From NCBI RefSeq assembly GCF_034661175.1, contig NZ_CP141058.1, positions 1,984,001 to 2,048,000 of the forward strand: a DNA stretch of 64,000 bases, read 5' to 3'. Below the pieces are notes generated by a model. It saw only the letters and a program-made list of their open reading frames with translations. It made no database searches and was not told the DNA's origin. Positions 16,674 to 25,980 of the stretch are shown piece by piece. A program made the position numbers and the translations under genes. This DNA comes from Nocardioides renjunii (GTDB taxonomy: Bacteria > Actinomycetota > Actinomycetes > Propionibacteriales > Nocardioidaceae). Each line of letters opens with the position of its first letter. The stretch's first letter is position 1.

Positions 16674-16749
16674 CGCCTGCCTTCCCGTGCCTCCACGTGC
16701 GACGGCAAGATGGACGCGAACCCGCGAACTCCCCGAGGAGATGTGGCTG

Positions 16750-19647
<2,898 letters not shown>

Positions 19648-24224: not shown

Positions 24225-24240
24225 TCGAACACACGTTCGA
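24225..24240. promoter_or_regulatory. Perfect SOS box (LexA operator)
   Basis: TCGAACACACGTTCGA is a perfect 6-4-6 palindrome matching the actinobacterial LexA consensus TCGAAC-N4-GTTCGA. It ends exactly one base before a TAGACT -10 box, so bound LexA would block that promoter. The controlled gene is the hypothetical at 24253. Confidence 0.85.
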
Positions 24241-24246
24241 TAGACT
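24241..24246 (+). promoter_or_regulatory. -10 box TAGACT abutting the SOS box
   Basis: TAGACT with a 6-base spacer (GGCGCG) to GTG 24253, so a leaderless message is expected. The SOS box sits directly upstream and overlaps the -35/spacer zone. Confidence 0.65.
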
Positions 24247-24252
24247 GGCGCG

Positions 24253-24669
24253 GTGTTCCCCGTCCCGCAACCGCCCCGGCGGGCCACGCCGCCCCAGGGC
24301 CACCGCGGCGTCGCCCCGCCCGGCTGGCCGCGACAGGTGCGGCCGCCGGACGCCCCCGACTGGGAGACCACCGCGGCCAGCTGGCTGCTCGACCTCTGCC
24401 CGCCCGACTACCGCCGGTTCCCCGGGCTGCGGCGTCACGTCGTGGTGCTGGCGCGCTTCGCCGTGCTGCACGTCGAGGCGCAGCAGCTGGCGACCCGGCG
24501 CGGGCTCAGCGAGATCCGCGGCGACCTGAAGGACGTCGCCAACGAGGCGGTCGTCGAGGCCGCGGTGCAGACCTTCCAGCTCGAGGACGCCCGGCTGCTC
24601 GGCGTACGCCGCGAGGTCGGGCTGGTCGAGGAGGCGCTGCGCGGTCGTCGCTACCGCGTCCGGATGTGA
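24253..24669 (+). CDS. SOS-regulated conserved hypothetical protein (138 aa)
   Basis: 138 residues. A Pro/Arg-rich N-terminus (about 1-35, MFPVPQPPRRATPPQGHRG) precedes a compact helical domain: DWETTAASWLLDLCPPDYRRFPGLRRH, then LARFAVLHVEAQQLATRR and EAVVEAAVQTFQLEDARLLGVRREVGLVEEALRGRRY. I know the pattern from other actinobacteria but no function. Many Arg residues and helices would suit nucleic-acid or protein binding. The perfect LexA box over its promoter shows it belongs to the DNA-damage response. It is a one-gene unit: the next gene has its own -10 box. Confidence 0.8.
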   Translation: MFPVPQPPRRATPPQGHRGVAPPGWPRQVRPPDAPDWETTAASWLLDLCPPDYRRFPGLRRHVVVLARFAVLHVEAQQLATRRGLSEIRGDLKDVANEAVVEAAVQTFQLEDARLLGVRREVGLVEEALRGRRYRVRM

Positions 24670-24702: not shown

Positions 24703-25980
24703 ATGCATCGCTTCGCGGCCGTGGCCGTGTTCGACCTCTTCGGCCGGCTGCTGCTGCAGGAGCGTGACGAGGACGCGCCCCACGACCCCGAGCGCTGGGG
24801 CTACCCCGGTGGTGACCTCGAGCCGGGGGAGGACTTCGTCACCGCCGCGGTGCGCGAGCTGGAGGAGGAGACCGGGCTGGTCGTCGACCCCGCGCGTCTC
24901 CAGTCCCTCGGCAGCCACCGGTTCCGCAGCGCGTCGTGCGGCGGGGACGACGTCTTCGAGCTCTTCGCCGTACGCCTGTCGGTCTCCCAGGACGACCTCG
25001 TGTGCGGCGAGGGCCGGCAGGTGCTCCTCGTCGACCCGGCCGACCTCGGCGACCGGGAGCTGCACCAGGCCACCGCGCTGACCCTCGACCGGGTGCGGGA
25101 GTGGCACGCCACCTCGGTGCGCACCGACTTCGTCCAGGTGACGCTGGTGGACCCGCGCGGCCGGGTGCTCATGCAGGAGCGGGACGAGCACGCCCCGGTC
25201 TGGCCCGACATGTGGTGCTTCCCGGGCGGCGGCCTCGAGGAGGGAGAGGAGCCGGCGGCGGGTGCGGCGCGCGAGCTGGCCGAGGAGACCGGCGTGGTGC
25301 TGGCCCCCGAGGAGCTCACCGACCTCGGCCTGTTCGAGCTCGCCACCGACCGCGGCACCTTCCGGTTCCACGCCTTCGTCGCGCGTACGACGCTCACCGA
25401 CCGCGACGTGGAGTGCCACGAGGGCCGGCAGATGGTCTTCGTCGACCCCGACCCGCTGCCCGGGCTGGACCTCGTGCCGTCGACGGCTCTCGTGGCGCCG
25501 GCGCTGCTCGAGTGGATCGCGCAGCACCCGCGCGGCGGGGACGACCACAGGCGGCGCTTCGCCGGCGTGATCCTCGTCGATGCGCGCGGGTGGCTCCTGC
25601 TGCAGGAGCGCGACGAGCACCCCCGGATCGACCCGGAGAAGTGGGGCCTGGCCGGCGGCCACCTCGAGCCGGGCGAGGACTTCGTCGTCGGGGCGGCACG
25701 CGAGCTGGAGGAGGAGACCGGCGTCCGGCTCGAGCCGGACCAACTGGCGCTGCTCGGTGAGTTCGCCGTCGACCACCGCGAGGCCTACGGCACCTGGGAC
25801 CTCATGCAGGTGTTCGCCGCGCGCACCGACCTCACCGACGCGGACATCGACTGCCGCGAGGGTCGGCAGATCGTCTTCGTGGACCCCGAGGTGGCGCGGG
25901 GGCTCGACCTGAGCGCCGCGGCGGTCGACATCGTGCCCGCCTTCCTCGCCAGCCGGCTCTACGCCACGATGGCGCTATGA
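24703..25980 (+). CDS. Triple-Nudix hydrolase
   Basis: 425 residues made of three tandem Nudix domains of about 140 residues each. Nudix boxes start near residues 37 (GDLEPGEDFVTAAVRELEEE), 176 (GGLEEGEEPAAGAARELAEE) and 319 (GHLEPGEDFVVGAARELEEE). All three keep the GX5EX7REUXEEXGU catalytic glutamates. Each repeat also repeats the run LLLQERDE or VLMQERDE before the box and GRQxxFVDP after it. Nudix enzymes hydrolyse nucleoside diphosphates linked to another group; substrate unknown. Three intact sites in one chain are rare. The last four bases (ATGA) overlap the SMP-30-like gene. Confidence 0.9.
   Translation: MHRFAAVAVFDLFGRLLLQERDEDAPHDPERWGYPGGDLEPGEDFVTAAVRELEEETGLVVDPARLQSLGSHRFRSASCGGDDVFELFAVRLSVSQDDLVCGEGRQVLLVDPADLGDRELHQATALTLDRVREWHATSVRTDFVQVTLVDPRGRVLMQERDEHAPVWPDMWCFPGGGLEEGEEPAAGAARELAEETGVVLAPEELTDLGLFELATDRGTFRFHAFVARTTLTDRDVECHEGRQMVFVDPDPLPGLDLVPSTALVAPALLEWIAQHPRGGDDHRRRFAGVILVDARGWLLLQERDEHPRIDPEKWGLAGGHLEPGEDFVVGAARELEEETGVRLEPDQLALLGEFAVDHREAYGTWDLMQVFAARTDLTDADIDCREGRQIVFVDPEVARGLDLSAAAVDIVPAFLASRLYATMAL

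Follow-up and report, generated by a model that had tools for sequence, protein, structure and literature searches.

The locus examined here raises the question of what an orphan actinobacterial gene does directly behind a perfect SOS box, and with which part of the damage response its product works. A predicted LexA (SOS) box, TCGAACACACGTTCGA, occupies positions 24225..24240 on the + strand of the window, the 64-kb stretch of DNA that was analysed, and matches TCGAAC-N4-GTTCGA with zero mismatches. It is abutted by a predicted -10 element, TAGACT (24241..24246, +), which lies 6 bases 5' of the GTG start codon (24253) of a gene for a helical protein of 138 residues (24253..24669, +; stop codon 24667-24669), an arrangement predicted to give a leaderless transcript. 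"S" is used here as the working name of the gene product. The flawless 6-4-6 LexA site and the exact spacing of -10 box and gene reported in a preliminary description of this DNA were both confirmed. The site is the sole zero-mismatch box in the window, and three other perfect boxes lie elsewhere in the genome. When up to two mismatches are allowed, the window holds 9 boxes; 100 shuffles gave 2.5 on average, and 0/100 reached 9. The closest named S locus is that of Nocardioides sp. zg-1308 (99 % protein identity).

The preliminary description had left S unassigned, and our searches agree: S matched no curated family above the cut-off, and a fold search returned no clear structural relative. 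At E 0.001, 2650 homologues were found, with no Pfam domain among the 120 matches listed; the named sources are Nocardioides, Intrasporangiaceae-type genera (Knoellia, Pedococcus), and Tessaracoccus with other Propionibacteriaceae. W37, L45, P50, R54, L66, R89 and R120 are invariant in an alignment of 101 sequences (A2). The AlphaFold2 model (mean pLDDT 86.7, pTM 0.75) is all-helical: a short head of helices leads into a long hairpin formed by residues 63-92 and 98-129, and the N-terminus and tail are poorly modelled. Three candidate identities were rejected. A HEPN relative was not supported by PF18726 or any other Pfam match, and hhalign against the SAV_6107 HEPN protein was not significant. 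An ImuA' relative likewise gave no significant hhalign result, and S has no Y-family (ImuB) domain and no Pfam match above the cut-off. A phage or mobile origin was set aside on zero matches in a phage collection and five plasmid records, four of them larger than 1 Mb.

Conservation of the box was followed in a set of 116 related genomes. S was matched in 48, and two weak matches (G006 and G073; E ~1e-3) were left out because tblastn with S missed both, giving 46. The box just 5' of S is perfect in 36 of these, has one mismatch in six and two in three, and is missing in one. In family f1, which we took from organism names to be Nocardioidaceae, the window's own family, all clear orthologues (38/38) have retained the box at one mismatch or fewer; family f2 (eight S genomes) contains the single box-less case and all three two-mismatch cases. 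A named genome collection, which shares species with the related set, gave a similar picture: among the best 80 of 365 loci, 60 boxes are perfect, 18 have one mismatch and two loci have none, so that 78/80 are at one mismatch or fewer, compared with one perfect and two one-mismatch boxes among 2660 control windows at the same loci (3/2660). Four plasmid S loci were counted alongside this collection: the box has two mismatches in two of them and a single mismatch in a third, and the fourth has no box.

The promoter layout could be followed in the same 80 best loci of 365. In 62 of the 78 boxed loci the box is followed by TANNNT and then, after a spacer of 6-7 bases, by an ATG or GTG in frame, against a shuffle expectation of 0.3, and in these 62 the box ends 0-2 or 7-9 bases 5' of the -10 element; 16/78 do not match this leaderless pattern. 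The layout is that of a putative leaderless transcript with a promoter that LexA could cover. LexA control of S, as predicted from sequence, is strongly supported by this conservation in its own family.

Outside the family the picture changes. The box is absent from nine f6 loci, which encode a divergent form of S, and from the single f8 locus. The f6 form (DWPCQVKxPGSYDWERSA; L142-L149) also has no RYVPRL-like C-terminal end, and a GC-rich inverted repeat lies just 5' in several of these loci. Among the 30 best loci of a class sample, 16 boxes are perfect, one has one mismatch, one has two, and 12 loci have none; f1 contributes 15 of these loci (14 perfect and one with two mismatches), and 3/5 f9 loci are boxed. 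Twenty further class-sample loci, picked by us across families, gave four boxes at one mismatch or fewer, all in f89, and 16 loci without. Overall, 28/50 class-sample loci, from 15 families, have no box: it is found in f1, part of f2, f9 and f89, and is missing from most other families sampled. The test offered in the preliminary description, that orthologues should carry the box if LexA controls the gene, thus came out in favour of LexA control in the window's family, and against it in most of the distant families sampled. Since most of the more distant homologues examined are box-less, SOS control is a feature of some lineages and not of the whole S family. We also searched the box-less S genes for a RecA-NDp/PafBC-like damage promoter, using what we take to be its motif; with a single exact TTGTCNGTG in 29 loci and none in 13 others, such a promoter is no general answer.

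The other perfect boxes of the genome (G000; 4.4 Mb, single contig) were read with their neighbours. TCGAAC-N4-GTTCGA occurs at four places and the backward-read control pattern at none; with up to two mismatches allowed the count is 437 and that of the control 225, so these matches are mostly noise and only boxes with zero or one mismatch are informative. Besides S, perfect boxes mark an AlkB-like gene, an imuA'-imuB-dnaE2 locus and a DUF6504-HEPN_SAV_6107-dnaE2 locus. The AlkB-like 2OG-Fe(II) oxygenase (PF13532; L031, L153) has its box just 5', at G000:C1:798031-798046, and an ORF named GntR-like by eye lies in the opposite orientation about 80 bases from that box. In the imuA'-imuB-dnaE2 locus (L033, L265) imuB carries PF00817, and the gene labelled imuA' by eye is presumably so. 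The second dnaE2 locus is represented by L034 and L264. Two SOS-marked dnaE2 systems, imuA'-imuB-dnaE2 and DUF6504-HEPN-dnaE2-dinB, are thus found together in one genome (L264, L265).

What is new here is that S tracks the DnaE2 type that is encoded with DUF6504, the SAV_6107 HEPN protein and DinB. The query was the dnaE2 of the DUF6504-HEPN locus, the second dnaE2 locus with a perfect box, and its close matches in relatives have at least 59 % identity. This DnaE2 type is present in 34/116 related genomes, and S in 33 of these 34, the exception (G048) being an 85 %-complete assembly. S occurs without it in 13/46 related S genomes, of which 12 have imuA' and the remaining one (G070) is 84 % complete. 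imuA' itself is present in 86/116 relatives, with both genes in 21, S only in 25, imuA' only in 65 and neither in five. An early idea that S belongs with ImuA'-ImuB, both having perfect boxes here, was dropped because S and imuA' anti-correlate.

This association was also seen between close relatives. On an aconitase tree (one gene, no support values, 80/116 genomes) with sister comparisons read by eye, the DnaE2 type changes in the same sense as S and imuA' in the opposite sense in each of six comparisons that differ in S (G010 vs G016+G037; G003/G063; G059 vs G018+G036; G009/G041; G061/G032; G028 vs G008+G066). One more comparison, G024/G048, is an exception. S can persist after the polymerase is gone, because the DnaE2 type differs within pairs that both retain S (G004/G040, G053/G007, G043/G058 and G057/G068, and likewise G019 and G055 when set beside their neighbours). 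A two-trait model comparing dependent with independent evolution gave LR values of 42.1 (S-DnaE2), 36.0 (S-imuA') and 53.6 (DnaE2-imuA'), obtained with our own script on the one-gene tree and with some rates at bound.

Wider samples retain the association and loosen it. A narrower profile (A1) found S in 14 genomes of a phylum sample of 396, all 14 with the DnaE2 type, which itself gave 91 matches, many of them distant and 77/91 without S. In the class sample (335 genomes, requested completeness at least 95 %, DnaE2 cut-off 1e-100), S was found in 128 and the DnaE2 type in 161; both were present in 103, S only in 25, the polymerase only in 58 and neither in 149. The polymerase is therefore present in 103/128 S genomes vs 58/207 genomes without S. 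The 58 polymerase-only genomes fall in f94 (36; a small-genome family), f6 (12), f5 (3), f99 (3), f11 (2), f80 (1) and f102 (1). Eleven of the 25 S-only genomes are in f89, and some of these may be misses, because several f89 polymerase matches lie near the 1e-100 cut-off. When G222, G286, G123 and G048 were rechecked with an f6 S protein as query, S was still not found. The case for a strict dependence of the DnaE2 type on S is weakened by the 58/161 class-sample polymerase genomes that have no S.

Nineteen polymerase loci were read by eye with the help of a simple ORF caller. The usual order in Nocardioides is SOS box, DUF6504, HEPN_SAV_6107, DnaE2, a methyltransferase-like gene and DinB, after which a DUF3040-like gene is common. 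The methyltransferase and DUF3040 labels were given by eye, and those of DUF6504, HEPN and DinB come from Pfam matches in single loci. Somewhere within the 11-kb stretch, 18/19 loci have a box at one mismatch or fewer. S was not found in this operon in the dnaE2 loci read. Paired perfect boxes, one of them directly 5' of dnaE2, were observed within one dnaE2 locus in L250 (2616, 4734) and L255 (6969, 7070), which would suit a split of such a locus into separate units for the small genes and for dnaE2.

A 2026 survey divides these polymerases into DnaE2A, which occurs with ImuA-ImuB, and DnaE2B, which occurs in genomes without them; according to the parts of that text available, one DnaE2B group combines an active PolY, a standalone ImuB-C and RecA and is represented in Tessaracoccus (lapidicaptus type) (PMC12926913). 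The polymerase type followed here fits that group because its neighbours match and imuA' is usually missing, although 9/34 related genomes have both, and it is probably the published DnaE2B, an assignment made from neighbours and the usual absence of imuA'. The suggestion that DUF6504 is the standalone ImuB-C of the literature, to which it looks alike by eye, was unsupported by hhalign. The published DnaE2B modules, as far as the available text describes them, share with the present system an actinobacterial origin, a DnaE2 type mostly without imuA' and a DinB-like polymerase nearby. They differ in that S is encoded elsewhere on the chromosome and no S-like protein is named in the available parts of the survey, nor in those of a paper on the mycobacterial mutasome (PMC6511836). 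A neighbourhood survey would miss S because it lies far from the polymerase operon (0.75 Mb between the two loci in G000). In Streptomyces venezuelae, LexA targets include dnaE2 and dinP, and Table 1 of that study's main text lists no LexA target that could be matched to S (PMC9380542). The literature searched on SAV_6107/DUF6504, on Nocardioides LexA or mitomycin, and on DnaE2B gave no title or abstract opening about S.

From its perfect LexA-box match and its co-occurrence with a DnaE2B-like polymerase, we infer that S may be an SOS-induced accessory factor of the DnaE2B translesion pathway. We hold this reading tentatively, at somewhat less than an even chance, because the class sample has exceptions and because some forms of S, described below, have no box and are linked to aconitase. 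The interpretation given in the preliminary description is in this sense partly supported, and the comparative data extend it to a link with one DnaE2 type. In the proposed mechanism, LexA bound to the box would lie over the promoter as far as the -10 element until DNA damage, through activated RecA, leads to LexA cleavage. The leaderless S mRNA would then be made together with the separately located, own-boxed DUF6504-HEPN-dnaE2B-dinB operon, and S might load, stabilise or regulate DnaE2B, a job comparable to that of ImuA'/ImuB in the other actinobacterial mutasome. Where the polymerase was lost, S may have been retained for a while or for a second role. We take this to be the most economical account of the box, its conservation, the promoter layout and the co-occurrence together.

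Such a factor would resemble known systems in part. With the mycobacterial ImuA'-ImuB-DnaE2 mutasome, as described in the available parts of PMC6511836, S would share the status of a LexA-marked accessory factor of an error-prone DnaE2; it differs in having no detectable similarity to ImuA' and no Y-family domain, and it tends to occur where imuA' is missing. UmuD' and YqjX/YolD would likewise be comparable as small SOS proteins serving a lesion-bypass polymerase, but the available survey text describes them as SH3 beta-barrels (PMC12926913), whereas S is modelled as all-helical. The SAV_6107 HEPN protein (PF18726) of the dnaE2 operon is, like S, small, helical and tied to the same DnaE2 type, but hhalign finds no similarity between the two. 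Damage-induced mutation is driven in actinobacteria by DnaE2 polymerases. How the ImuA'-ImuB version works is known in outline, and the partners of DnaE2B are only predicted. S, a conserved, LexA-marked orphan at a separate locus, is a concrete candidate for the missing partner. Nocardioides provides a natural series of lineages in which two mutagenesis machines seem to replace each other. A bolder reading, which we consider rather unlikely, is that the actinobacterial DnaE2B mutasome has in S a subunit of its own that has not been listed before, and that Nocardioides lineages repeatedly swapped whole machines, S plus DUF6504-HEPN-DnaE2B-DinB for ImuA'-ImuB-DnaE2A.

S might instead act in the SOS response at large, for instance by modulating RecA, the replication fork or the nucleoid, alongside any damage-tolerance system that a genome has, its link to DnaE2B being a by-product of shared ancestry or lifestyle. 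The 13/46 related S genomes without the polymerase, 12 of them with imuA', fit this explanation, since S keeps its box there, and so do the class genomes that keep the polymerase without S. It accounts poorly for the presence of S in all but one of the polymerase genomes among relatives and for the six sister comparisons, all of which shift S and polymerase together, and we regard it as doubtful.

The box-less loci bear on another possibility. The aconitase stop codon lies 3-306 bases 5' of the S match in 12/29 loci examined, nearly all of them box-less (a value of 700 for L310 was discarded as a script artefact, and the aconitase end in L309 and L310 was judged by eye only). In several families no more than about 50 bases separate the aconitase stop codon from the start of S, which there has no SOS box (L300, L307, L311, L312, L313, L318), and an old acnA-S operon is possible. 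S also remains close to aconitase and dxs in many Nocardioides loci; in the window the aconitase gene (16690..19647, +) lies 4.6 kb from S, as context outside the SOS unit. Because box-less, aconitase-linked loci occur in distant families, S either predates SOS control or lost it several times. S could accordingly be an old housekeeping gene tied to aconitase or central metabolism that was placed under LexA in some lineages and whose main job is not lesion bypass. Yet S with its own promoter (f1, f2, part of f9 and the four f89 loci read) is nearly always boxed, and its presence in just 14/396 phylum-sample genomes ill suits a core metabolic role, which makes this explanation distinctly unlikely.

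SOS regulons often include a small, lineage-specific division inhibitor, and S, being small and matching no curated family, might be a cell-division or growth checkpoint protein. However, no membrane segment was seen in S by inspection, and a LysM ORF divergent from lexA, with which it shares a cluster of four one-mismatch boxes (L152, G000:C1:3651076-3651218), already occupies what we take to be the position of the YneA/Rv2719c-like division inhibitors of mycobacteria and corynebacteria. A checkpoint role for S is therefore very improbable.

The preliminary description had presented S as a single-gene unit, which is doubtful. A 425-residue ORF with three Pfam NUDIX stretches in tandem (24703..25980, +) begins 33 bases 3' of the S stop codon, a consensus scan found no terminator between 24000 and 26100, and a NUDIX homologue lies immediately 3' of S in 45/80 loci (best 80 of 365, named collection). 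The triple-NUDIX ORF is possibly transcribed from the predicted S promoter. That the box mainly serves this hydrolase as an SOS nucleotide-pool cleaner, with S a minor leader gene, is the least probable explanation of all, since 35/80 of these loci (one of the 35 short of sequence) have no adjacent NUDIX homologue and the box is nevertheless present in 78/80, and since the box sits against the start codon of S, which is itself conserved as a protein.
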